64,000 nt of DNA from the NCBI RefSeq assembly GCF_027474405.1, contig NZ_CP114871.1, positions 2,427,001-2,491,000 of the forward strand, in the 5' to 3' direction. Under the pieces are notes generated by a model, which saw only the letters and a list, made by a program, of their open reading frames with translations, did not search any database and had not been told where the DNA came from. This document shows, piece by piece, positions 1 through 14,443 of this stretch. The DNA is from Caulobacter sp. NIBR2454. Its GTDB lineage: Bacteria > Pseudomonadota > Alphaproteobacteria > Caulobacterales > Caulobacteraceae. A program made the position numbers and the translations under genes. Numbering within the stretch: the first letter of the stretch is position 1; the number at the start of each line of letters is the position of its first letter.

Positions 1-1330
1 GGATCTCCATCCAGCGCCCGAAGGTGAACCGGGTGATCTTCTGGGAGCCGTTGAAGCAGCAGAAGACGAAGGCGTCGTCGGGCAGGCCGGCGTCGGCCCG
101 CGTCGGCTTTTCAGGCGCGACGACACGTTTGCGGTCGTTGGCCTGATAGCAGGGCAGCCGAAGCACCTTCTCCGAATAGTACATCTCCATTTCCGGCGGG
201 ATGATCCACTCGTCGGCGATGATGTACTGGTGATAGGGCGTGGCCATCGTGCCTGGAAAGCCGAGCCAGTTGACCTGGATCGGCGCGGGCCGGCGAGCGA
301 AGGCGCCAGTACGGCTGTCACGCGTGTGACCGTTGACGTCGATCAGCACGTCGATGCCGTCGTCGGCGATACGACGCGCGGCCTCGTCATCGGTCATGGC
401 CCGGATATCGACCCAATGCTCGACCGCGCCCTGGATGCGGGCGCTGATCGTCCCCGTCGCTGGACCGCAATAATAGGCGAAGACCTCGACCTTGCTGCGG
501 TCGTGGAGTTCGAACATCTCGGACATCAGATAACCGACCGCGTGGTCGCGCAGATCCGACGAGACATAGCCGACGCGGATGCGGCGGCCTGTCAGGTCGA
601 TCTTCGCATCCCTGCGGTCGAACGCGTCCAGATCGAAGGTCTCTGGGACCGAGCGTTCCGTATAGGCGGCGGCGGAGGCCAGCTGCAAAAGCGGATCATC
701 CGTATAGGCGCCCAACGACAGAGGATGGATGCCACCCACCAGTCGCTCGCGGGTGATGGTCTCGGACGGAATGACGATAGGCCATTTGCAGCCGCCCAGC
801 CGGCGCGCGGTGTACTGCTCCAGCACGTCATACTGGGTGGGGTCGAGATCCAGGCACTGGTACAGCGGAACTTCCGAATCCAGTCCCAGGTCGTGTTCGC
901 CCAGGACGCGGCCGAGTTGCTTGAGCGCGGTCACCTTGTAGGTAAGGACCATCCCAGTGAGGGGCACTTGGCGATCCACGGCGGTTCGCCATTGCTCCAC
1001 CGCTTCGGCCACCATTCCGCGCTTTTCGAGCACGCTGCCAAGGTTGATGTACCCGGGCAGGAAGTCAGCATTCACCTCGACCGACGCGCGCAGCGAGGCC
1101 TCCGCGGACGCCAGGTCTCCCAGTTGCTGCTGAAGGCCGGAATTGTTGAAATAGGCGACGAAGACGTGCGGGTTCTGCGGATTGAAGGCGATCCAGATCC
1201 GATAGAGTTGCTCGGCCATGGCCGTATGTCCCGAACCACCGAGACGACCGGTCGCCTCGAGCAACTCGGTCAGAGGGTAGCCGCCAGCGGTGATCCGCTG
1301 AACCGCGGAGACGAATAGAGCTTCGGACAT
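1..1330 (-). CDS. TPR-containing GT41 glycosyltransferase (O-GlcNAc transferase/SPINDLY-like), C-terminus outside window
   Basis: The reverse strand is open from ATG at 1330 to the window edge (443 residues visible). The first ~125 residues are helical TPR-like repeats (for example AYFNNSGLQQQLGDLASAEA near 59-78). The GT41 catalytic part follows: GYVSSDLRDHAVGYLM at 254-269, whose H263 aligns with the conserved histidine of OGT; DVNGHTRDSR at 331-340; VNWLGFPGT at 353-361; and FCCFNGSQKIT at 423-433. GT41 enzymes transfer GlcNAc or hexose to Ser/Thr or Asn of cytoplasmic proteins, and the TPRs select the acceptor. A GAAGG lies a few bases upstream of the ATG; a GTG at 1345 is the only alternative start. 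The co-oriented gene upstream encodes a giant Thr/Ser-rich repeat protein, an attractive acceptor. A flagellin glycosyltransferase is the main alternative. The sugar donor cannot be read from the sequence. Confidence 0.9.
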   Translation of the reverse strand, partial: MSEALFVSAVQRITAGGYPLTELLEATGRLGGSGHTAMAEQLYRIWIAFNPQNPHVFVAYFNNSGLQQQLGDLASAEASLRASVEVNADFLPGYINLGSVLEKRGMVAEAVEQWRTAVDRQVPLTGMVLTYKVTALKQLGRVLGEHDLGLDSEVPLYQCLDLDPTQYDVLEQYTARRLGGCKWPIVIPSETITRERLVGGIHPLSLGAYTDDPLLQLASAAAYTERSVPETFDLDAFDRRDAKIDLTGRRIRVGYVSSDLRDHAVGYLMSEMFELHDRSKVEVFAYYCGPATGTISARIQGAVEHWVDIRAMTDDEAARRIADDGIDVLIDVNGHTRDSRTGAFARRPAPIQVNWLGFPGTMATPYHQYIIADEWIIPPEMEMYYSEKVLRLPCYQANDRKRVVAPEKPTRADAGLPDDAFVFCCFNGSQKITRFTFGRWMEI

Positions 1331-1464
1331 ACTGCCTTCGGACACGTCTGGTCACAGGGACGCACGGCGCACACGACGCCGAAACGAGGCGAGTGCAGAA
1401 CGCTTGCCCGATTCGATCAAGCTGATCTTGGAACCCCATGGAACCGACAACTTCGCAACGAGAA

Positions 1465-1496
1465 ATGGGCCGGTCATGAGGTTATGACCGGCCCAT
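1465..1496 (-). terminator. Rho-independent-type hairpin after the octapeptide-repeat gene
   Basis: A perfect 13-bp inverted repeat (ATGGGCCGGTCAT at 1465-1477, ATGACCGGCCCAT at 1484-1496) encloses a 6-base loop 20 bp past the stop of the repeat gene. On the minus strand the stem is followed by ATTTCTCG, a weak U tract. It probably ends most transcripts of the giant gene, so the glycosyltransferase downstream would depend on read-through or its own promoter. Confidence 0.7.
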
Positions 1497-1516
1497 CATT
1501 CGTGATCTGAAGCGCC

Positions 1517-4500
1517 TTAGTGGGGCCCGAAGAGGGCGTCCAGCTGTTCGCTGTTGAAGTACGGCACCTGCGTGTCCTGGATCGCGGCGATCTGGTTCAC
1601 GTCCATCGAGGCGATGTTCGTGGTCGAGAGCGCTGCGATCTGCGTCTGGGTCAGGGCGGCGATCTGGGTGGTGGAGATCGCGTCGATGTCCGTAGTCGTC
1701 ATGGCGCCGATCGCCGTGGAGTTCACACCCGCGAAGGCCGTCGCGCTGATGGCGGCGAGCTGAGCCGGCTGGAACTCACGAAGATCCGTGACGCTCAGCT
1801 CCGCGGTCTGCTCCTTGGTCAGACCGGCGATCTGGGTATCCGCCAGCGCTCCGATCTGCGTGCTGGTCAGTGCCGAGACGAGGCCTCCACCCAGACGACC
1901 AAGCTGCGTCGACGCCAGGGCGCCGAGTTGCGTCGTCGTCAGGTCGCCTGCGTCACCGGTCTGCAGAGCGCCGATCTGGATCAGGCTCAGGGCCTTGATC
2001 TGGTCGGTCGAGAGCGATCCGAACTGCGTCTGGGTCAGCGCTGAGAGATTAGCGCCCGACAGGCCCTTGATCTGCGTCGTGCTCAAAGCCGCGATCTGCG
2101 TGGTGGTGAACTCGCCCATGTCGGTCGAGGTCAGCGCCAGAAGCTGCGTATTGCTCAGCCCCTGGACCTGCGTCGTCGTCAGCGATCCGAAGGTCGTGCC
2201 GTCGATGCTGTTCAGGTTCGTGGTCGATAGCGCTCCAAGTTGCGCGCCGGTCAGTTGCTTGATCTGCGTCGTCGTGAAGTCGGCGAAGTCAGCAACCGAC
2301 AGACCCTGAACCTGGGCCGTCGTCAGCCCGCCGAGCTGCGTGCTGTCCAACGACCGGATTTGCGTCTCGCTCAACGCCGACAGCGCCGTCTTGCTCAGGC
2401 TGCCGATCTGGGTCGAGGTCAGGCCGTCAAGCTGGGTTGCCTGCAGCGACGCCAGCTGGTCGCCCGTCAGGCCGCCGACCTGGGCCGCCGTCAGAGAGCC
2501 AAGCTGTGTGCCGTCGAACTCCGCCAGGTCGCCTGCCGTCAGACCATCGATCTGGGCGTTCGAAAGCGCCTTGATCTGATCGGTGGTGAGCGAAGCGACC
2601 TGCGTGCTGGTCAGGCCGGACAGGGCGGTCGAGGACAGGGCGCCAATCTGGGTGGTCGCCAGAGCCGCGATCTGGGTGGTGGTGAACTCCTGGACGTCAG
2701 CCGCGCTCAGCAGTTGGAACTGCGTGGTCGTCAAGGCCTTCATCTGATCGGCGTCGAACCCTTGGATCTGGTTCGTGTTGAGCGCCGACAGATTGGTGCC
2801 TGTCAGGGCGCCAAGCTGCGTGCCCGCCAGCCCATCGATCTGGGTGCTGGTGAACTCGGCCAAATCACCGCCCGTCAGCTTGCTCATCTGCGTCGTGGTC
2901 AGACCGGCGAGCTGTGCGGCGTCGAGCGAGCGGACTTGCGTCTCATCCAGCGACGAGAAGTTGGTCGCGCCTATGGCCCCAATCTGGGAGGCGGACAGGC
3001 CGTCGAGTTGGGTCGTATCGAGTTCGGTTAAGCCGCCCGACAGCGCACCCAGCTGGGCCGCCGACAGCACCCCAAGCTGCGTAGCCGAGAACTCACCGAT
3101 ATCCGTAGCGCTCAGGACCTGAAGCTGGCTTGTAGTCAGCGCCTTCACAGCCGTGGTCGACAGGGCTGTGAACTTGGTGGCGTCGAGGCCCGAGATCGCG
3201 GTGCCGGTCAGGCCGGTCACCTGGGTATTGGCCAGGGAGCCGATTTGGGTCGTATCGAACTTCTGCAGGTCGGTCGAAGACAGAGCCTTCAGCTGGTTGG
3301 CCGAGAAGTTCTTCAGCTGCGTCGTCGTCAGAGCGCCAACCTGAGTGGTGTCGAGACCGCTGATCGCGGTGCCGCCTAGGCTCTTCAGCTGCGTGTCGTT
3401 CAGGGCGGCGATCTGCGTCGTGCCGAACTCGGCGAATTCAGTGCTCGACAGTGCGCTGATCTGCGCAGTCGAAAGACCGCGAACCTGCGTCTCATCCAGC
3501 CCGCGCACTTGGGTCTGCGTCAGGCTGATGAAGTTGGTGGTCGACAGTGCGCCGAGCTGCGAGCCCGTCAGCCCAGAAACCTGGGTGGTCGTGAAATCAC
3601 CGAAGTCGGCGGCCGACAGAGCCTTCAACTGGGTGGTGGTGACCCCCTGGAGTTGGCCGGCGTCCAGAGCCTGCACCTGAGTCTCGCTCAAAGCCGCGAA
3701 GTTGGTCGCGCCCAGTTGCCCGACCTGGGTCGAGGTCAGGCCGGAGATTTGGGTGGTGCTGAACTCGGCGATATCCGTCGCCTTCAACCCAGCCAGTTGC
3801 GCCGCCGTCAGGCCGGACAGTTGACCGCCGTCGAGCGAACGAACCTGGGTTTCGTCCAACGAAGCCAGCCCCGATGCGCTAAGCGCGCCGATCTGCGTAG
3901 AGGCGAGCCCGTCAAGATTGGTCGTGCTGACGTTCGACAGTCCACCCGCCAGGCTGCCCAACTGGGCGGCCGACAGGGCGCTGAACTGATCAGTCGTAAA
4001 TTCCCCGATGTCCGTCGCCGAAAGCAGCGACAGCTGCTTGGTCGTCAGGCTTTTGACCGCTTCAGTGGTCAGAGCGGCGAACTTGGTGGCGTCGAGCGCC
4101 GACAACCCGGTGCCCGTCAGGCCTGCGATCTGCGTATTGGCGAGCGCACTGATCTGAGTGGTGGTGAACTTGGCGACGTCTCCGCCAAGTTGGGTCAGGG
4201 CGGCTGTGGTCAACGCCTTCACCTGGTCGGCGCTCAGGGCGCCCACCTGGGTCGTGTCGAAGGCCTTCAGGGCCGTGCTGGCCAGGTTTTTCACCTGAGT
4301 GGTCGTCAGGGCGGCGATCTGGGTCGTGCCGAACTCGGCCAGATCGGTAGCCGAGAGCTTGCTCAGCTGCGCCGTCGTCAGACCGCGCACTTGGGTCTCG
4401 TCGAGACCGCGAACCTGCGTCTCGGTCAGGCTGGACAAGGCGTCCGTCGAGAGGGCCCCCAGTTGGGCCGCTGCCAGACCAGCCACCTGAGTGGTGGTGA

Positions 4501-7500
4501 AGTCAGCGAACTCGGCCGCCTTCATACCCGTCAACTGGGTCGTCTTGATGCCGGCGATCTGGTTGGCGTCGAGATACCCTACCTGGGTGCTGCTCAAAGC
4601 TTCGAACTGCTTGGCCGACAGCTTGCCGATCGCATCAGAGCTCAAGCCCTGGATCTGGGTCTGGGTCAGGCCGCTCATCGCGCTCGTCGTCAGACCGACG
4701 ATCTGCGTCGCCGCAAGGGCGGCGAATTGCGTGGCGCTAAACTCGCCAATGTCAGTGGCGGTCAGATTGCTGAACTGGGCCGAGGTCAGCTTGTTCAATT
4801 GAGCCGGATCAAGCGCCTTGACCTGCGTGCTGTCCAGCGCCGACAGGGCCGTCGCGGTGAGCGCGCTCACCTGGGTGTTGGCCAGCGCGCTGATCTGGGT
4901 GCTGGTGAGCTTGGTGACATCCGCGCCAAGTTGCGTCAGGGCGGCTGTGGTCAACGCCTTCACCTGATCGACGCTCAAGGCGCCCACCTGGGTCGTGTCG
5001 AAGGCTTTCAGGGCCGTGCTGGCCAGGTTTTTCACCTGAGTGGTCGTCAGGGCGGCGATCTGGGTCGTGCCGAACTCGGCCAGATCGGTAGCCGAGAGCT
5101 TGCTCAGCTGCGCCGTCGTCAGACCGCGCACTTGGGTCTCGTCGAGACCGCGAACCTGCGTCTCGGTCAGGCTGGACAAGGCGTCCGTCGAGAGGGCCCC
5201 CAGTTGGGCCGCTGCCAGACCAGCCACCTGGGTGGTGGTGAAGTCGGCGAACTCAGCCGCCTTCATGCCCGTCAACTGGGTCGTCTTGATGCCGGCGATC
5301 TGGTTTGCGTCCAGATAACCCACCTGGGTGCTGCTCAGAGCCTCGAATTGCTTGGCCGTCAGCTTGCCGACAGCGTCCGAGCTCAAGCTCTGGATTTGAG
5401 TCTGGGTCAGGCCGCTCATCGCGCCCGTCGTCAGACCGACGATCTGCGTCGCCGCAAGGGCGGCGAATTGCGTGGCGCTAAACTCGCCAATGTCAGTGGC
5501 GGTCAGATTGCTGAACTGGGCCGAGGTCAGCTTGTTCAGCTGAGCCGGATCAAGCGCCGTAATCTGCGTGCTGCTCAGCGCCGAGAGCGCCTCGCCCTTC
5601 AGAGCGCCAATCTGAGTGTTGGCCAAGGCGCTGATCTGGGTGGTCGAGAACTTCGCCATATCGGTGGCGGTCAGCGCGGTCATCTGCGCGACGGTCAACG
5701 CCTTGACCTGATCGGCGCTCAGGGCGCCCATTTGGGTCGTGTCGAAGGTCTTCAGGGCCGCCGTGCCGAAGCCGGAGACTTGCTTGGTCGTCAGGGCGGC
5801 GATCTGGGTCGTGCCGAACTCGGCCAGATCAGTGGTCGACAACTTGCTCAGCTGCGCCGTCGTCAGGCCGCGGACCTGGGTCTCGTTCAGGCCTCGGACC
5901 TGGGTCTCGGTCAGGCTGGACAAGGCGTCCGTCGCTAGCGCCCCGAGTTGAGTGGCTGCGAGGCCAGCCACCTGGGTGGTGGTGAAGTCGGCGAACTCAG
6001 CCGCCTTCAGGCCCGTCAACTGGGTCGTCTTGATGCCGGCGATCTGGTTTGCGTCCAGATAACCCACCTGGGTGCTGCTCAGAGCCTCGAATTGCTTGGC
6101 CGTCAGCTTGCCGACAGCGTCCGAACTCAAGCTCTGGATTTGAGTCTGGGTCAGGCCGCTCATCGCGCCCGTCGTCAGGCCCGAAATCTGCGTCGCGGCG
6201 AGAGCGGCGAACTGCGTGGCGCTCAACTCCCCGATGTCAGTGGCGGTCAGCTTGCTGAACTGAGCCGAGGTCAGCTTGTTCAGCTGAGCCGGATCAAGCG
6301 CCGTAATCTGCGTGCTGCTCAGCGCCGAGAGCGCCTCGCCCTTCAGAGCGCCAATCTGAGTGTTGGCCAAGGCGCTGATCTGGGTGGTCGAGAACTTCGC
6401 CATATCGGTGGCGGTCAGCGCGGTCATCTGCGCGACGGTCAACGCCTTGACCTGATCGGCGCTCAGGGCGCCCATCTGGGTCGTGTCGAAGGTCTTCAGG
6501 GCCGCCGTGCCGAAGCCGGAGACTTGCTTGGTCGTCAGGGCGGCGATCTGGGTCGTGCCGAACTCGGCCAGATCAGTGGTCGACAACTTGCTCAGCTGCG
6601 CCGTCGTCAGGCCGCGGACCTGGGTCTCGTTCAGGCCTCGGACCTGGGTCTCGGTCAGGCTGGACAGGGAGTCCGCCGCCAAAGCGCCCAGTTGGGTCGC
6701 GGCAAAGCTGGCTACTTGAGTCGTGGTGAAGTCGGCGAACTGGGTCGCCTTCAGGCCCGTCAACTGGGTCGTCTTGATGCCGGCGATCTGGTTTGCGTCC
6801 AGATAACCCACCTGGGTGCTGCTCAGAGCCTCGAATTGCTTGGCCGTCAGCTTGCCGACAGCGTCCGAACTCAAGCTCTGGATTTGAGTCTGGGTCAGGC
6901 CGCCGACCGCAGAAACCGACAGGGCGGCGACCTGAGACGCCGCCAAAGCGCTGAATTGGGTGACATCGAACTCGGCGACATCCGTCGCGCTGAGCTTGCC
7001 AAGCTGCGCGCTCGTCAGCTTATTGAGCTGGGCGCCTGTCAGGCCTTGCACCTGCGTGCTGCTCAGCGCCGACAGCGCCTCGCCCTTCAGGGCGCCAATC
7101 TGAGTGTTGGCCAGGGCGCCGATCTGGGTCGCGGAGAACTTCTCCATATCGGTGGCGGTCAGCGCGGTCATCTGCGCGGCCGTCAGCGCCTTGACTTGCT
7201 CAGTGCTGAGGCCACTGACCTGGGTTGTATCCAGGAACTTCAGCGCGGCCGTGCCGAACCCGGCAATTTGCTTGGTGGTGAGCGCCCCCAACTGGGTCGA
7301 GCTCAGTTCACCCAGGTCAGTAGAAGACAGACCGCTCAACTGCGCCGCAGTCAGGCCCTTGATCTGGGTAGCGTCGAGGAAACCGGTCTGGGTGCTGGTC
7401 AACGCCGAGAATTGCGTCTTCGACAGGCCGCCGACTTGCGTAGCGGTCAGCGATTGGACCTGGGTCTGATCAAGGGTCCCAAGCGCGGTGGTGGACAGGC

Positions 7501-8182
7501 TGTTCAGCACAGCCGTCGACAGACCGCCAAGCTGGGCCGTGCTGAAATCGTCCAGATCGGTTTGATTGAGACTCTGCGCCTGAGCCGTCGTCAGCCCTTT
7601 GAGCTGGGTCGTATCGAGCGTCTGGACCTGGGTGCTGGACAGAGCCGAGAAGTTGGCCGCGCCCATGCCGGCGATCTGCGTGGCCGCCAAGGCGCCGATC
7701 TGCGCGGCGTCGAACTCGCCCACGTCGGTGGTGGAGAGGCTCTGCAGCTGAGTAGTGGTCAGCCCCTTCACCTGATCAGTCGTCAGGCTCTTGATCTCGG
7801 TCGCGTCGAGATTGGAAAGGTTCGTCGTCGACAGCGCGCCGATTTGGGTCTTCGCCAGACCATCCAGATCCGTGATCGTGAACGCGGCCGCCTGGGTCGT
7901 GGTCAGCGCCCCCATCTGGCTCGTGTTGAAGACCGCCAGCTGGCCGCTGCTGAAAGTGACGTTATTGGCCAGGCCCTTGATCTGGTCGGCCTTGAGCCCC
8001 TTGATCTGGGTCGCCTCGAGCGCCGCCACCTGGGTGTCCGCCAGAGCCGCTACGCCCGTCGCACCGAGCGCGCCGAGCTGCGTAGCGTTCAGGCCTTTGA
8101 TGTCGGTGGTTGACCACCCGCGCACCATCGTCGCCGAGGCGGAGGCTAGCTGCGTGGTCGAAAGAGCCGAGGTGAGCGACAT
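1517..8182 (-). CDS. Giant octapeptide-repeat protein (2221 aa), Thr/Ser/Gln-rich, function unknown
   Basis: From about residue 30 to the C-terminus the protein is a tandem array of roughly 275 eight-residue units with consensus L-[ST]-[AST]-T-Q-[LIV]-x-[AG], for example LSTTQIAA. I recognise no characterised family. A second tier is visible: about every seventh octad carries TD(L/I/F/M)x(E/D) followed by F, and three octads later comes an octad with the Q replaced (TAALK, GEALS, ATNFA), giving a 56-residue module. A third tier is four near-identical 247-248-residue blocks between about 4190 and 7290. The N-terminus (MSLTSALSTTQLA) has no signal peptide, there is no transmembrane segment, and the C-terminus (LDALFGPH) shows no glycine-rich RTX region. 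An AGGA lies about 10 bases before the ATG. Cytoplasmic fibre, type I-exported surface protein and glycosylated scaffold all remain possible. Confidence 0.85.
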   Translation of the reverse strand: MSLTSALSTTQLASASATMVRGWSTTDIKGLNATQLGALGATGVAALADTQVAALEATQIKGLKADQIKGLANNVTFSSGQLAVFNTSQMGALTTTQAAAFTITDLDGLAKTQIGALSTTNLSNLDATEIKSLTTDQVKGLTTTQLQSLSTTDVGEFDAAQIGALAATQIAGMGAANFSALSSTQVQTLDTTQLKGLTTAQAQSLNQTDLDDFSTAQLGGLSTAVLNSLSTTALGTLDQTQVQSLTATQVGGLSKTQFSALTSTQTGFLDATQIKGLTAAQLSGLSSTDLGELSSTQLGALTTKQIAGFGTAALKFLDTTQVSGLSTEQVKALTAAQMTALTATDMEKFSATQIGALANTQIGALKGEALSALSSTQVQGLTGAQLNKLTSAQLGKLSATDVAEFDVTQFSALAASQVAALSVSAVGGLTQTQIQSLSSDAVGKLTAKQFEALSSTQVGYLDANQIAGIKTTQLTGLKATQFADFTTTQVASFAATQLGALAADSLSSLTETQVRGLNETQVRGLTTAQLSKLSTTDLAEFGTTQIAALTTKQVSGFGTAALKTFDTTQMGALSADQVKALTVAQMTALTATDMAKFSTTQISALANTQIGALKGEALSALSSTQITALDPAQLNKLTSAQFSKLTATDIGELSATQFAALAATQISGLTTGAMSGLTQTQIQSLSSDAVGKLTAKQFEALSSTQVGYLDANQIAGIKTTQLTGLKAAEFADFTTTQVAGLAATQLGALATDALSSLTETQVRGLNETQVRGLTTAQLSKLSTTDLAEFGTTQIAALTTKQVSGFGTAALKTFDTTQMGALSADQVKALTVAQMTALTATDMAKFSTTQISALANTQIGALKGEALSALSSTQITALDPAQLNKLTSAQFSNLTATDIGEFSATQFAALAATQIVGLTTGAMSGLTQTQIQSLSSDAVGKLTAKQFEALSSTQVGYLDANQIAGIKTTQLTGMKAAEFADFTTTQVAGLAAAQLGALSTDALSSLTETQVRGLDETQVRGLTTAQLSKLSATDLAEFGTTQIAALTTTQVKNLASTALKAFDTTQVGALSVDQVKALTTAALTQLGADVTKLTSTQISALANTQVSALTATALSALDSTQVKALDPAQLNKLTSAQFSNLTATDIGEFSATQFAALAATQIVGLTTSAMSGLTQTQIQGLSSDAIGKLSAKQFEALSSTQVGYLDANQIAGIKTTQLTGMKAAEFADFTTTQVAGLAAAQLGALSTDALSSLTETQVRGLDETQVRGLTTAQLSKLSATDLAEFGTTQIAALTTTQVKNLASTALKAFDTTQVGALSADQVKALTTAALTQLGGDVAKFTTTQISALANTQIAGLTGTGLSALDATKFAALTTEAVKSLTTKQLSLLSATDIGEFTTDQFSALSAAQLGSLAGGLSNVSTTNLDGLASTQIGALSASGLASLDETQVRSLDGGQLSGLTAAQLAGLKATDIAEFSTTQISGLTSTQVGQLGATNFAALSETQVQALDAGQLQGVTTTQLKALSAADFGDFTTTQVSGLTGSQLGALSTTNFISLTQTQVRGLDETQVRGLSTAQISALSSTEFAEFGTTQIAALNDTQLKSLGGTAISGLDTTQVGALTTTQLKNFSANQLKALSSTDLQKFDTTQIGSLANTQVTGLTGTAISGLDATKFTALSTTAVKALTTSQLQVLSATDIGEFSATQLGVLSAAQLGALSGGLTELDTTQLDGLSASQIGAIGATNFSSLDETQVRSLDAAQLAGLTTTQMSKLTGGDLAEFTSTQIDGLAGTQLGALTGTNLSALNTNQIQGFDADQMKALTTTQFQLLSAADVQEFTTTQIAALATTQIGALSSTALSGLTSTQVASLTTDQIKALSNAQIDGLTAGDLAEFDGTQLGSLTAAQVGGLTGDQLASLQATQLDGLTSTQIGSLSKTALSALSETQIRSLDSTQLGGLTTAQVQGLSVADFADFTTTQIKQLTGAQLGALSTTNLNSIDGTTFGSLTTTQVQGLSNTQLLALTSTDMGEFTTTQIAALSTTQIKGLSGANLSALTQTQFGSLSTDQIKALSLIQIGALQTGDAGDLTTTQLGALASTQLGRLGGGLVSALTSTQIGALADTQIAGLTKEQTAELSVTDLREFQPAQLAAISATAFAGVNSTAIGAMTTTDIDAISTTQIAALTQTQIAALSTTNIASMDVNQIAAIQDTQVPYFNSEQLDALFGPH
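4190..7290 (-). repeat. Four tandem 744/741-bp blocks inside the octapeptide-repeat gene
   Basis: The same landmark (CCTCGAATTG or its variant) recurs at 4600, 5341, 6085 and 6829, giving periods of 741, 744 and 744 bp, or 247-248 codons. One octad is a residue short in the block with period 741. Adjacent copies are nearly identical at DNA level: 4191-4500 and 4932-5241 differ at only a handful of positions, synonymous sites included. This indicates recent duplication or gene conversion. Block edges are approximate because octad-level similarity continues on both sides. Confidence 0.85.
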
Positions 8183-9996: not shown

Positions 9997-10995
9997 CTAG
10001 GTGACGACGAAGCCCTTCCAGAACGGATCGGCCTGGTCGATCCAAATCTGATTGAAGCCTGTGGCGATCGCCGAGCCCTCGATGGACGGAATGATCGCCG
10101 GCTTGCCGCCCAAATCCGTCGCCGCCTCGACGCGACCGATGAAGCGGCTGCCGATGTAGCTTTCGTGGACGAAGCGGTCCCCCACATTCAACCGCCCCTT
10201 GGCGGCCAGGTGGGCCAGGCGGGCGGAGGTGCCCGTGCCGCAGGGACTGCGGTCGATAGCCCGCTCGCCATAGAAAACCGCATTGCGTCCGTCGGCGCCC
10301 TCGCCTTTCGGCTTATCGGCCCAGAGGATATGGCTTACGCCCCGGATGGTGGCGTCAAGCGGGTGGACGGGTTCATAAACGTCCCGCACCAGCCGCCGGA
10401 TCACCGGCGACAGCTCCAGGATCTTCGCCGCGCCCAGGTCGTCCAGGTTGGTGTAGGCGCCTTGCGGCTCGATGATCGCGTAGTAGTTGCCGCCATAGGA
10501 CACATCGACGGTCAGCGTCCCAAAGCCCGGGACCTCGATCTCGATCCCCTCCGCCGCCAGATAGCTGGCCACGTTACGGATGCGGACCCAGGTGACCTTG
10601 TCGCCTTCCCATCCGTACTCGATGTCGATGACGCCGGCCGGCACCTCGACCTTCAGCCTGCCCGGCTCTCGCGGCAGGATCAGGCCGTTATCGAGGCCGA
10701 AAGTCATCATGCCGATCGTGCCGTGCCCACACATGGGCAAGCAGCCGCTGGTCTCGATGAACAGAACGCCCACGTCAGTGTCGTGACGCGTCGGCGGATA
10801 AAGGAAGCCGCCGGACATCATGTCGTGGCCGCGGGGCTCGAACATCAGACCGGTGCGGATCCAGTCGAAGCGGGCCTGGAAGTCAGCCCGGCGTTCGCTC
10901 ATGGACCCGCCGCGCAACAGGGGCGCGCCGCCCGCCACCAGGCGGACCGGGTTACCGGCCGTATGGCCGTCGATGCAGAAGAAGGTGTGGCGCAT
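9997..10995 (-). CDS. lhpA: 4-hydroxyproline 2-epimerase (proline racemase family)
   Basis: This 332-residue protein converts trans-4-hydroxy-L-proline to cis-4-hydroxy-D-proline, the first step of bacterial hydroxyproline breakdown. Both catalytic cysteines of the two-base mechanism are present: C89 in MCGHGTIG and C252 in DRSPCGTGTSA. The family start FFCIDGHTAGNPVR is at 5-18. Length matches epimerases/racemases. It follows the DapA-family deaminase gene with a 9-bp gap and is probably co-transcribed. Cys at both catalytic positions excludes the Thr-containing trans-3-hydroxyproline dehydratases. Preference for hydroxyproline over proline is inferred mainly from the neighbouring pathway genes. 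The ATG is preceded by GAGACG. Confidence 0.9.
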   Translation of the reverse strand: MRHTFFCIDGHTAGNPVRLVAGGAPLLRGGSMSERRADFQARFDWIRTGLMFEPRGHDMMSGGFLYPPTRHDTDVGVLFIETSGCLPMCGHGTIGMMTFGLDNGLILPREPGRLKVEVPAGVIDIEYGWEGDKVTWVRIRNVASYLAAEGIEIEVPGFGTLTVDVSYGGNYYAIIEPQGAYTNLDDLGAAKILELSPVIRRLVRDVYEPVHPLDATIRGVSHILWADKPKGEGADGRNAVFYGERAIDRSPCGTGTSARLAHLAAKGRLNVGDRFVHESYIGSRFIGRVEAATDLGGKPAIIPSIEGSAIATGFNQIWIDQADPFWKGFVVT

Positions 10996-11004
10996 TCGCG
11001 TCTC

Positions 11005-11922
11005 TTAGGCTGCCTTGGAAGCCAGGGTGGGACGAGTCTCGGCCGCGCGCTCGACCATCTTGGTCACCTGATCGCGGCGCGCGCCGGCCAGGGGCAGACG
11101 CGGCATGCGCACGCGCTCCGAACCACGGCCCATGATCTGCTCGGCCAGCTTGATCGACTGGACCAGATCGTGATCCGCGTCCAGATGAAGCAGCGGCATG
11201 AACCAGCGATAGATTTCTCGTGCACGGTCCAGGTCGCCGCTGTTGATCGCCGCCACCAGGGCCAGGGATTCCTGCGGGAAGGCGTTAGTCAGACCCGAAA
11301 CCCAGCCCTGGGCGCCCAGCAGCAGGCCTTCCATGGCCACGTCGTCCAGGCCGGCGAACAGGGTGTAGCGGTCGCCGAACTCATTGATCAGGTCGGTGAA
11401 GCGGCGCGGATCGGGCGCGCTTTCCTTGACGGCCACGATGTTCTTCACGTTCGACAGTGAGGCCAACGTGCCCATGGTCACGCTGGTCCGGTATGCTGGC
11501 GGGTTGTTGTAGAGCATGATCGGCAGCGAGGTCGCCTCGGCCACCGTGCGGAAGTGAGCGTGCAGTTCGGCTTCCGTCGGCACATAGACCATGGCCGGCA
11601 ACAGCATGATGCCAGTGGCGCCGATCTTCTCCATGTCCTGGGCGAAGGCCACGGCTCGGGTGGTGGTCAGTTCGGCGCAGCCGGCGATCACGGGCACGCG
11701 ACCATTCGAGGTTTCGACCGCGGCGCGCACGACGTCGCGCTTTTCTTGCGGCTCCAGGGAGTTGTTCTCGCCCACGGTCCCGATGATGATCAGACCGTTG
11801 ACGCCATCGTTGATCAGGCCGTCCTGAACCCGCTGGGTTGCATCCAGATCGACCGCCAGGTCGGGGGTGAACTGAGTGGTGGCGGCGGGAATGACGCCGG
11901 ACCAGTCGCAGGTGGAAGCCAC
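11005..11922 (-). CDS. lhpC: DapA-family lyase, probable 1-pyrroline-4-hydroxy-2-carboxylate deaminase
   Basis: A (beta/alpha)8 aldolase of the DHDPS/NAL superfamily, 305 residues. The Schiff-base lysine is K166 (VAVKES), the general acid Tyr is Y138 (MLYNNPP), and the carboxylate-binding loop is GTVGENN at 48-54. In hydroxyproline pathways this family deaminates the imine product to alpha-ketoglutarate semialdehyde. The family alone would also allow dihydrodipicolinate synthase or keto-sugar-acid lyases, so the call rests on context between an epimerase and a flavin dehydrogenase. I start at GTG 11922, which has AAGGAG six bases upstream; a TTG at 11937 would put the ribosome site inside the gene. 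It heads a minus-strand operon with the epimerase. Confidence 0.83.
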   Translation of the reverse strand: MASTCDWSGVIPAATTQFTPDLAVDLDATQRVQDGLINDGVNGLIIIGTVGENNSLEPQEKRDVVRAAVETSNGRVPVIAGCAELTTTRAVAFAQDMEKIGATGIMLLPAMVYVPTEAELHAHFRTVAEATSLPIMLYNNPPAYRTSVTMGTLASLSNVKNIVAVKESAPDPRRFTDLINEFGDRYTLFAGLDDVAMEGLLLGAQGWVSGLTNAFPQESLALVAAINSGDLDRAREIYRWFMPLLHLDADHDLVQSIKLAEQIMGRGSERVRMPRLPLAGARRDQVTKMVERAAETRPTLASKAA

Positions 11923-11938
11923 TTGTTTCTCCTTCAAG

Positions 11939-11957
11939 ATCGTCTACCGTATACGAT
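11939..11957. promoter_or_regulatory. Imperfect palindromic operator between divergent hydroxyproline operons
   Basis: ATCGTCTACCGTATACGAT has 9-bp arms matching at 8 of 9 positions around a central C. It lies just upstream of the deaminase ribosome site and 34 bp before the flavin dehydrogenase start. GntR/FCD proteins typically bind short palindromes with a GTATAC-like core, and such a regulator is encoded at the end of the plus-strand operon. A second copy of the ATCGTATACGG half occurs at 25759-25769. Confidence 0.55.
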
Positions 11958-11990
11958 ATCGAACAAGCGGCGGATGGCAAGGCGCCTCAG

Positions 11991-13244
11991 ATGGTCAAAA
12001 CAGCGCTGGTGATCGGAGGGGGTGTCGTCGGAGCGGCCAGCGCCTTCCGTCTGCAGCAGTTGGGCCTGCAAACCATACTCGTCGATCCCTGCGATGGTTC
12101 GGCCGCCTCGCTCGGAAACGCCGGCCATATCGCCGTTGAACAGGTGGAGCCTCTGGCCTCCTGGCCGACCATTCGCTCCGCCCCCCGACGCTGGTTCGGG
12201 CGCGGGGGCGCCCTTGATGTGCGCGATCCCCTCGCCTTTCTGTCATGGGCCAGGCGCTTCGTGGCCGCCGCGGGGCAAGAGCGTTTCGCATCCGGCGCCG
12301 ACGCCCTTCGGTCCCTTCTTCTTCATGCCATGCCCGCCTGGCGACGCCTTGCCGATGACCTTGAGCGGCCCGACCTGTTGTCCGAAACGGGTCACCTGCT
12401 GGTCTGGGAAAGCCCCGAGAGCGCACAACGCGGGCGCGCTGCCTGGGCCGCCGCAGATACCGGCACGGCCCGCATCCAGCCTCTGAGCGAGGCTACCCTC
12501 GACAACCTGTGGGGTCTGACCCGCAATCGTCCCTCAGACGGCATCCGCTTTTCCGGCACCGCCCAGGTCTCCGACCTCGGGCAATTGGCCGGCGCTCTGG
12601 AAGCGGCCTATCGCGCCATCGGCGGTGAGCTGCGCGCTACCAGGGTAGAGGCCCTTACACGCGAGAACGGCGTTGCGACGGCGCGCCTGGCCGATGGCTC
12701 GAACCTGACCGCCGACATCGTGCTCGTCGCCGCCGGCATCGGCTCCGCCCGTCTCATGGCTGGCGTAGGCCAGCGTCCGCCACTGATCGCCGAGCGCGGC
12801 TATCACCTGCGCTGGACCGACCACGATTGGCCCGTCGAACTGTCACCCATCGTCTTTGAAGATCGCTCGATGATCGTCACCCGCTTCGCCGGGGGGCTTC
12901 AGGCGGCCAGCTTCGTGGAGTTCGGTGCGCCGGGGCAGAGACCCGACCCCCGCAAGTGGGCCCGCCTGGCCGCGCATGTGAAGGCGCTTGGCCTGCCGGT
13001 GCGGGGCGAACCCAGCGCCTGGATCGGCGCCCGACCCACCCTGCCCGACTATCTGCCGGCGATTGGCCGTTCGGAAACAGCTGGCAATCTCTATTACGCC
13101 TTCGGGCATCAGCACCTGGGCTTGACGCTGGGTCCCATCACAGCCGAGATCGTCGCCGCCCTGGCCGATGGTCGCGAGCCGCCGGTCGCGCTACAGCCAT
13201 TTGACCTGAACCGTTTTGAGTCGAAGAAGGCCAAGCGCGCATGA
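11991..13244 (+). CDS. FAD-dependent D-amino-acid dehydrogenase, probable D-hydroxyproline dehydrogenase
   Basis: A 417-residue DadA/DAO-family flavoprotein. The dinucleotide fold is at the N-terminus (ALVIGGGVVGAASAFRLQQL, GxGxxG at 9-14) and a C-terminal FAD contact is suggested by YYAFGHQHLGLTLGPITAEI near 370-390. In the hydroxyproline pathway it would oxidise cis-4-hydroxy-D-proline to the pyrroline substrate of the deaminase encoded divergently 68 bp away. It is the single-subunit type; no separate iron-sulfur or small subunits are nearby. The stop overlaps the next start (ATGA at 13241-13244), showing translational coupling with the M24 peptidase. A general D-amino-acid dehydrogenase is the alternative. 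Confidence 0.85.
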   Translation: MVKTALVIGGGVVGAASAFRLQQLGLQTILVDPCDGSAASLGNAGHIAVEQVEPLASWPTIRSAPRRWFGRGGALDVRDPLAFLSWARRFVAAAGQERFASGADALRSLLLHAMPAWRRLADDLERPDLLSETGHLLVWESPESAQRGRAAWAAADTGTARIQPLSEATLDNLWGLTRNRPSDGIRFSGTAQVSDLGQLAGALEAAYRAIGGELRATRVEALTRENGVATARLADGSNLTADIVLVAAGIGSARLMAGVGQRPPLIAERGYHLRWTDHDWPVELSPIVFEDRSMIVTRFAGGLQAASFVEFGAPGQRPDPRKWARLAAHVKALGLPVRGEPSAWIGARPTLPDYLPAIGRSETAGNLYYAFGHQHLGLTLGPITAEIVAALADGREPPVALQPFDLNRFESKKAKRA

Positions 13245-14443
13245 CCAAGGGCGTCGGGGGCTCCACCGCACAGACCGAACTGGCCAAACTATCGCCGCCC
13301 GCTGAACGCGTCCGCCGGATCGGAACCGACGACCACCTGCAGCGCCTGGAAAAGGCCCGCCGCCTGATGACCGATCAGGGCATCGACGCCTTGATCGTCA
13401 ACGCCGGCTACAGCCTGCGCTATTTCACCGGCGTGGCGTGGGGGGCGACGGAGCGCCTGGTGGCCATGATCCTGCCGCGCGTCGGCGCGCCGGTCATGAT
13501 CTGCCCCACCTTTGAGCTCGGCTCACTGGAGGCGGGGCTGAAGATCGAGGCCTCGGTGCGTTGCTGGGAGGAGGACGAGAATCCCTATGCCCTCACCGCC
13601 GCGACCCTGTCGGAAATGGGCGTCGATACCGTCGCCCTCGATCCGCTCGCCTCGTTCCTGATCTTCAACGAACTGCGCAAGCAGGCCGGATTGATGACCC
13701 TTATGGACGCGTCGCCGGTGATCAATGGCTGCCGGATGATCAAGTCGGCGGCCGAACTTGATCTGATGCGCGAAGCCAAGGCCATCACGCTCGAAGTGCA
13801 TCGCCGGACCGCCCGCATCCTGGCCCCCGGAATTCGGGCGAGCGAAGTGAAGCACTTCATCGACACCGCCCACCGCGCCATGGGCGCTGACGGCGGCTTC
13901 AGCTTCTGCGCCGTGCAGTTTGGCGAGGCGACGTCGTACCCGCACGGGGTCCCCGGCGACCAGGCGTTGGCCGAGGGCGATATCGTCCTGATCGACACCG
14001 GCTGCACGGTGGACGGCTACAACGCCGACATCACCCGCACCTACGTCTTCGGCGAACCCACTGAAAACCACGCCCGCATGTGGGAACTGGAGCACCGCGC
14101 CCAAAAGGCCGCCTTCGACGCCGTGCGCCCCGGCGTGCCCTGCGAGGAAATCGATGCGGTGGCTCGCCGGGTGCTGGAAGGCGCCGGCCTTGGCCCCGAC
14201 TACCGCCTGCCAGGCCTGCCGCACCGCACCGGCCACGGCATCGGCCTTTCGATCCATGAGCCGGCCTACCTGGTGCGCGGAGACAAGACACCTCTGGCGC
14301 CAGGCATGTGCTTCAGCAACGAGCCCATGATCGTCATCCCGGGCGCCTTCGGCATCCGGCTGGAAGACCATTTCTACGTCACCGAGGATGGCGCGGCCTG
14401 GTTCACAGAGCCTTCGCCCTCCCTGGAGGCGCCGTTCGGCTAG
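13241..14443 (+). CDS. M24-family Xaa-Pro dipeptidase (prolidase-like)
   Basis: A 400-residue pita-bread metallopeptidase with a creatinase-like N-terminal domain (about 35-165). All five metal ligands are present: D252 and D263 (VLIDTG and NADITR), H332 (RTGHGIG), E361 (SNEP) and E375 (IRLED). M24B enzymes cleave Xaa-Pro dipeptides, and collagen-derived Xaa-Hyp is a natural substrate. Its place inside the hydroxyproline operon, overlapping the dehydrogenase gene by 4 bp, suggests it releases hydroxyproline from imported dipeptides. There is no signal peptide, so it acts in the cytoplasm. Aminopeptidase P or creatinase specificity cannot be excluded by motif alone. Confidence 0.87.
   Translation: MTKGVGGSTAQTELAKLSPPAERVRRIGTDDHLQRLEKARRLMTDQGIDALIVNAGYSLRYFTGVAWGATERLVAMILPRVGAPVMICPTFELGSLEAGLKIEASVRCWEEDENPYALTAATLSEMGVDTVALDPLASFLIFNELRKQAGLMTLMDASPVINGCRMIKSAAELDLMREAKAITLEVHRRTARILAPGIRASEVKHFIDTAHRAMGADGGFSFCAVQFGEATSYPHGVPGDQALAEGDIVLIDTGCTVDGYNADITRTYVFGEPTENHARMWELEHRAQKAAFDAVRPGVPCEEIDAVARRVLEGAGLGPDYRLPGLPHRTGHGIGLSIHEPAYLVRGDKTPLAPGMCFSNEPMIVIPGAFGIRLEDHFYVTEDGAAWFTEPSPSLEAPFG

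Follow-up and report, generated by a model that had tools for sequence, protein, structure and literature searches.

The window analyzed here, a 64,000-nt stretch of the Caulobacter sp. NIBR2454 genome (contig NZ_CP114871.1, positions 2,427,001 to 2,491,000), encodes on its reverse strand a giant protein of ALTTAQ octad repeats (PF20080) and, directly downstream, a GT41-family glycosyltransferase with tetratricopeptide repeats (TPRs). This ALTTAQ-GT41 pair recurs as a conserved cassette in several orders of Alphaproteobacteria, with the octad gene leading, and we consider it likely that the two genes form a dedicated cytoplasmic protein O-glycosylation cassette with the octad protein as acceptor. 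A preliminary description of this DNA had proposed such a pair and knew of no earlier account of it; our literature search, which ran without most subscription papers and bioRxiv, likewise listed no match describing the pair, nor was the name ALTTAQ or the accession PF20080 found in any paper that it covered. The earlier picture of the repeat pair needs correcting, since the repeat already has a name in Pfam and the genome carries three ALTTAQ genes to a single GT41 gene.

The candidate acceptor gene spans 1517..8182 (minus strand, ATG start) and encodes the 2221 residues originally reported, in which a regular expression counts 270 octads, close to the earlier "some 275." The PF20080 profile matches this open reading frame (ORF) with E 5.7e-225 and 727.2 bits (curated cut-off 26.4), in 82 separate stretches that each reach E<=10. 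Its residues include 373 Thr and 208 Ser (581 together), 222 Gln, a single Trp, and no Cys. Alignments of 26 N-termini and 26 C-termini indicate that octads cover ALTTAQ proteins end to end, starting within the first residues (some N-termini carry extensions that are probably spurious), and Gln is highly conserved within the repeat. Within the window's protein, sequence is duplicated at an offset of 248 residues (31 octads), with an identical run of 138 residues, which suggests recent expansion. Database ALTTAQ proteins from elsewhere also carry PF05860, PF00353, or Ig-like domains; the first two are haemagglutination and RTX domains, and this company hints at a location on the cell exterior.

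The 5′ part of the glycosyltransferase gene occupies 1..1330 (minus strand), and the gene runs beyond the window to G000:C1:2426300. Translation could begin at ATG 1330 or at GTG 1345, from which the full product counts 681 aa; ATG 1330 is the more likely start and leaves a gap of 186 bp to the octad gene, near the 187 bp given before. The full gene matches the GT41 family (PF13844) with E 6.6e-83 and 279.2 bits (cut-off 25). Its TPRs align with those of human OGT in a profile comparison, as in an OGT-type superhelix, and the individual units fall below Pfam cut-offs; the earlier report of a same-strand GT41 enzyme with TPRs thus stands. As in OGT-type enzymes, a lysine (K436, which aligns with position 388 of the XcOGT chain and a human OGT lysine) and an HTT motif (AHTTASDAL, aligned with GHTTGMDVL) are present, and both are invariant across 11 aligned GT41 proteins; we take the lysine to be catalytic and the HTT motif to bind the donor. 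The nearest named match comes from an uncultured Caulobacter (86% identity). In a 118-sequence GT41 tree, the partner GT41s fall in one clade, the 99 subfamily members being separated from the other sequences by a branch with a Shimodaira-Hasegawa-like approximate likelihood ratio (SH-aLRT) of 99, in a tree built by a quick method and containing some long branches among the non-subfamily sequences. The label "linked" in this tree was set by similarity (>600 bits), with gene linkage measured separately, so the single clade is evidence of a subfamily.

Linkage was measured from the enzyme side by a profile search of genome contigs with GT41 sequence alone. The query, A1, was an alignment of 11 GT41s; the genes of ten immediately follow an ALTTAQ gene and the eleventh belongs to a divergent pair, which biases the query towards the subfamily. 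Among the best 80 of 561 GT41 relatives, 76 had a same-strand octad ORF upstream, counted from octads in all frames over up to 3 kb of flank and therefore independently of any gene caller. The other four comprise a head-to-head arrangement (L125) and three loci without an octad ORF, whose upstream flanks were full (L078), only 513 bp (L106), or only 123 bp (L094). With a gene caller based on GC content at third codon positions (GC3), the ALTTAQ gene is the next gene to GT41 in 71 of the 76 loci, at gaps of -29 to 276 bp; L057, L070, L097, and L101 also show a neighboring ALTTAQ gene, and L075 appears broken. An earlier, greedy gene caller was misled by long antisense ORFs and was dropped in favor of the GC3-based caller, octad counts, and tblastn. 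In the same count, the 3 kb downstream of GT41 contained an octad ORF in 4 of 69 regions, all of them second ALTTAQ genes. By record title, the linked loci come from Caulobacter, Phenylobacterium, Hyphomonadaceae, Magnetospirillum, Telmatospirillum, Nitrospirillum, Humitalea, and Ferrovibrio, among others; they also include two Marinimicrobia metagenome-assembled genomes (MAGs) and one Deltaproteobacteria MAG, all of which may be mis-binned. C. vibrioides DSM 9893 (L074) carries the pair as well. In L018 and L125, the latter from Asticcacaulis, the octad and GT41 genes are divergent instead of tandem.

The co-occurrence check that the preliminary description called for also points to coupling, in order, class, and phylum samples that overlap with one another and with the named loci. 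Among 398 genomes of the order, ALTTAQ reached E<=1e-8 in 25, and 24 of these carry the GT41 subfamily (G412 is the exception; Fisher's exact test, 1.2e-27). The subfamily occurs in 38 of the 398 genomes, scoring 1043-1232 bits against 482 for the next match; an octad ORF lies immediately upstream on the same strand in 36 of them, G014 is divergent, and G316 has too short a flank. Fourteen subfamily genomes have no ALTTAQ match at this cut-off, and 13 of them nevertheless have an octad ORF directly upstream; the last is G316, with its 123 bp of flank. The class sample (289 genomes) contains some GT41 in 94 (A1 match at E<=1e-20) and the subfamily in only four (891-1204 bits; next match 506), and all four are ALTTAQ-positive (E<=1e-7) compared with 2 of 285 others (p 5e-8). 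Among 279 genomes of the phylum, 14 have the subfamily (>760 bits), 14 have ALTTAQ, and nine have both (p 1.5e-10); these nine are not independent events, since nearly all come from one family of another class.

Such patterns could also arise if adjacency were inherited baggage, carried along by descent or transfer with no functional coupling: many loci do come from related Caulobacterales, and the overlapping genome samples are not independent. Yet the pair remains even though ten aligned partner GT41s are only 52-60% identical to the window's enzyme, and its order and strand are kept while most outer genes change. Furthermore, the pair recurs in Rhodospirillales, Acetobacteraceae, and others, and another class has ALTTAQ-GT41 clusters in other orientations. 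We therefore regard simple baggage as very improbable.

Seen from the ALTTAQ side, 33 loci had downstream room (from the order and family samples and the window's genome, with L021 left out as cut and G057, a genome with a tiny contig, left out of locus counts). GT41 follows directly on the same strand within 400 bp in 22 of these and is divergent in one, leaving ten without it. This is not the pattern of octad genes that generally lack a nearby GT41, which the preliminary description had named as grounds for giving up the pair. The second ALTTAQ gene of the window's genome (L015:6450-11825) encodes 1086 aa and is followed 45 bp downstream by a gene for a 689-aa protein with TPRs and an FkbM-methyltransferase domain, perhaps a parallel modification pair without GT41.

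The Ser/Thr content of the octads differs with linkage. At octad positions 3 and 4 combined, the median number of Ser/Thr per octad was 1.26 in 84 GT41-adjacent proteins versus 0.89 in 13 unlinked ones (p 7e-7), several of which, L132 included, come from genomes that have this GT41 elsewhere. Position 2 did not differ (0.70 versus 0.69; p 0.56). These tests leave out ten "near" proteins and one "cut" protein, proteins below 250 aa or 20 octads, and repeated C-termini, as well as L129, whose GT41 lies ~6 kb away on L128. Across 118 of the 120 database ALTTAQ proteins listed, a set with many multi-domain members, Ser/Thr at positions 3 and 4 had a median of 0.49, and position 2 differed too (0.59 versus 0.70). 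In all eight fetched genomes with both kinds of protein, the linked copy was richer at positions 3 and 4 than the unlinked copy: 1.09 versus 0.65 and 0.77 in the window's genome (G000), 1.10 versus 0.75 (G035), 0.97 versus 0.75 (G372), 1.36 versus 0.96 (G357; the 0.96 from only 26 octads), 1.40 versus 0.94 (G409), 1.81 versus 0.58 (G607), 1.26 versus 1.08 (G014), and 1.52 versus 1.28 (G634), where "linked" stands for a nearby or a divergent gene in G607 and G014 and not for one directly upstream. By composition, enrichment at positions 3 and 4 and not at position 2 fits acceptor sites.

The predicted fold gives these positions a structural context. An AlphaFold model of residues 1-200, made with 25 homologues, has a predicted local distance difference test (pLDDT) score of 96.1 and forms a screw or solenoid of short helices; nearly all octads contribute one helix, four to six residues long, and a short turn, and one stretch near residues 61-78 is irregular. 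We read the model as placing position 2 before the helix, as an N-cap, and positions 3 and 4 at its opening. The solved chain HeliScrew4 (PDB 9zem) matches the octads in sequence (E 5.5e-13) and shares their eight-residue period; it has mostly Pro at position 3 and Glu or Asp at position 4, where GT41-linked proteins have mainly Ser/Thr, and so an octad chain can form without Ser/Thr there. No paper on HeliScrew4 was found by name, and the chain was absent from the best 50 of 206 fold-search rows for the octad model. The best solved match in that search, mesothelin (E 5e-4; template modeling (TM) score 0.35), was weak, and we did not accept it as a homologue.

A glycosylation pair need not employ OGT-like chemistry: the sugar could be a hexose or deoxyhexose, or the target could be Asn or Gln of the octads instead of Thr/Ser. 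GT41 is described as including the HMW1C-type N-hexosyltransferases (PMC3983070) and the O-fucosyltransferase SPINDLY (PMC9715652), and the octads do have a highly conserved Gln. In the profile search, however, the closest solved relatives of the window's enzyme were O-GlcNAc transferases and XcOGT, with SPINDLY well below them and HMW1C-like enzymes barely matched, and the HMW1C/N-glucosyltransferase (NGT) model NF049992 gave 27.2 bits against a cut-off of 1000. The enrichment, moreover, concerns Thr, whereas this Gln is equally frequent per octad in unlinked and GT41-linked proteins (0.65 versus 0.67). These contrasts make the alternative chemistry improbable.

It is also conceivable that the genes are partners without being enzyme and acceptor, the ALTTAQ rod serving as scaffold or adaptor, perhaps held by the TPRs, while the GT41 glycosylates another envelope protein or itself. 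TPRs are known to bind proteins in general, and ALTTAQ repeats exist without GT41 beside them, so Thr-rich octads do not require the enzyme. Four genes on either side of GT41 were grouped at 105 distinct loci, and Pfam matches of one or a few members served to identify the four groups present in at least 10 loci. Besides GT41 itself, no group occurs at more than 27 loci, so the enzyme gene has no other acceptor gene as a regular companion; this and the Ser/Thr enrichment at positions 3 and 4, not 2, lead us to consider the scaffold alternative unlikely. The preliminary description would also have been contradicted by a GT41 orthologue lying consistently with flagellin; no flagellar gene was identified in the scanned members of the groups at 10 or more loci, and the FlgE-like hook gene downstream at L111 (Magnetospirillum) is an exception.

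The only non-GT41 group at more than 20 of the 105 loci is a third gene, encoding TPRs and an alpha/beta domain (TPR-GT), at 27 loci, 26 of them downstream on the same strand. In the window's genome it lies just outside the window (L013:13640-15319) and, from its first possible start, shares 20 bp with the end of the GT41 gene. An FkbM methyltransferase domain is present in four of 12 TPR-GT proteins. In a fold search with a TPR-GT model, the best 50 of 1544 rows were OGT, SPINDLY, and other TPR proteins with TM scores of at most 0.2 of the query, which we read as TPR matches and not as identifying the C-terminal domain. An extended short-chain dehydrogenase/reductase group of the nucleotide-sugar type occurs at 19 of the 105 loci, at 11 of them downstream on the same strand; Pfam assigns two of its members to GDP-mannose-dehydratase/epimerase. 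At ten loci (e.g. L025:3770-6064), the gene immediately upstream of the ALTTAQ gene belongs to a group whose one scanned member is a GH3 glycosidase by Pfam. Three loci (L109, L114, and L119) have the order ALTTAQ, GT41, a gene of 212/213 aa, and a second ALTTAQ; the small gene of L109 encodes a Methyltransf_24 methyltransferase, and two of the three records are labeled Marinimicrobia and possibly mis-binned. Elsewhere in the window, positions 9997-14443 hold what appears by eye, from the translations, to be a hydroxyproline-catabolism-like cluster (epimerase, DapA-family protein, FAD oxidoreductase, and M24-like peptidase).

A fusion points to a link between the enzymes. In G808, from another class, a single 3767-aa ORF contains four GT41 regions fused to a TPR-GT homologue (residues 3226-3756; 34% identity, E 8e-83) and is divergent from a 3369-aa ALTTAQ gene. 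Since both enzymes are fused in this single ORF, the sequence suggests that GT41 and TPR-GT serve one pathway. Giant ORFs of this kind, 2460-3767 aa long and with three or four TPR-GT41 domains in tandem, are found in L160 (5250-16553), L167, L169, and L170, all of family f181 in another class; one of them ends in a TPR-GT homologue. ALTTAQ genes lie ~1-4 kb from the giant ORFs in L160, L167, and L170, and none was seen on the short contig L169.

The gap between the two window genes contains a strong hairpin (1464..1497, minus strand) with a 14-bp stem, a 6-nt loop, and no proper T tract, and no canonical terminator was found there. The 78-nt stretch 1440-1517 folds with z = -5.3, and counterparts of the hairpin occur in 30 of 71 gaps of relatives (shuffles, mean 1.6). 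Only one of 16 hairpins listed from relatives, that of L053, is followed by a run of T. The hairpin may hold the enzyme level below the substrate level and so set the substrate-to-enzyme ratio.

Known systems offer partial parallels. Serine-rich repeat glycoproteins of Gram-positive bacteria, adhesins modified by GtfA/GtfB and further glycosyltransferases, are likewise described as long Ser/Thr repeat proteins with dedicated O-glycosyltransferases (PMC6973325, PMC5207161). In those systems the enzymes belong to other families, the repeats are rich in Ser, and the product is exported by accessory Sec and anchored to the cell wall, in contrast to the TPR-GT41 enzyme, predicted folded helical solenoid, and Gram-negative hosts found here. 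No GtfA/GtfB, accessory Sec, or cell-wall anchor gene was among the neighbor proteins scanned, in which no search was aimed at them. In HMW1/HMW1C, a GT41-family enzyme gene adjoins that of its large adhesin substrate, as it does here for the candidate acceptor, but HMW1C is described as having an AAD fold instead of TPRs and as attaching N-linked sugars to a TpsA protein exported through TpsB (PMC3983070). The TpsA haemagglutination domain is absent among the eight Pfam families matching the window's large protein at E<=10, and no TpsB pore gene was among the neighbor proteins scanned, without a search aimed at TpsB. Because the large protein has no TpsA domain and the NGT model is missed by far, the window's enzyme is not of the HMW1C type. 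By analogy, nonetheless, the system may work as the serine-rich repeat and HMW1/HMW1C systems do, with a long surface-type protein that has its own glycosyltransferase.

Closer to hand, FlmG of Caulobacter crescentus, from the same bacterial family, would be a precedent for TPR-guided cytoplasmic O-glycosylation: it is described as a cytoplasmic O-glycosyltransferase whose N-terminal TPR domain binds its substrate (PMC7591256). The comparison is by description only; the C-terminal domain of FlmG is characterized as GT-B, flagellins receive pseudaminic acid, and the term GT41 does not occur in the main text of that paper (PMC7591256). XcOGT (PDB 2jlb/2vsn) combines TPRs and a GT41 domain, as does the window's enzyme, and the two align over most of their length. 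TtOGT (5djs) is built in the same way, and its report gives neither a modified protein nor in vitro activity (PMC4683255); here, by comparison, a candidate acceptor is encoded next door.

In the O-glycosylation cassette that we favor, the cytoplasmic GT41 would dock on the octad solenoid through its TPRs and use a UDP-sugar to glycosylate Thr/Ser at positions 3 and 4, at the helix N-terminus, giving hundreds of sites per octad molecule. In Caulobacteraceae, the TPR protein with a putative GT-A-like domain, sometimes with a fused FkbM methyltransferase, could then extend or cap the glycan. The product would probably be a long, stiff, glycan-coated rod that is exported for the cell surface or matrix.

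Several observations weigh against this model. OGT-type enzymes usually modify extended segments, whereas the octad Thr lie in a folded helix. Ten of the 33 ALTTAQ loci have no GT41 neighbor, among them two of the three ALTTAQ genes of the window's genome, and not every ALTTAQ protein is part of a GT41 system. In two of the four class genomes with the subfamily (G607 and G702), the ALTTAQ gene is ~6 kb downstream and not directly upstream, with a second GT41 between it and the first. Descent confounds the compositional contrast, as the GT41-adjacent proteins may together form a single orthologous group; in G634, an incomplete second linked copy (1.27) does not exceed the unlinked one (1.28). 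As to export, inspection of the octad protein by eye found no signal peptide, anchor, or extra N- or C-terminal domain, and no secretion gene was among the neighbor groups at 10 or more loci. Finally, the GT-A call on TPR-GT comes from one weak Pfam match (E 0.042, in one of 12 members) and inspection by eye, and a profile search of solved structures returned nothing for its C-terminal domain.

To our knowledge, few acceptors have been identified for the TPR-type relatives of OGT in bacteria. Because one GT41 clade is nearly always encoded immediately downstream of a single kind of repeat protein, its candidate acceptor can be named, including in Caulobacter, a genus with good genetics. If the pairing is as proposed, it would give a function to the curated repeat family PF20080 and provide a substrate that is regular, able to fold, and endowed with many sites, on which to study the recognition of folded proteins by OGT-like enzymes. 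The chances seem to us about even that it also represents a widespread new class of O-glycoproteins: a helical-screw rod presenting adjacent Thr at each turn, glycosylated at hundreds of sites by an OGT-clade enzyme and then extended and methylated, for which the multi-GT41 megaenzymes of another class would be an assembly line.

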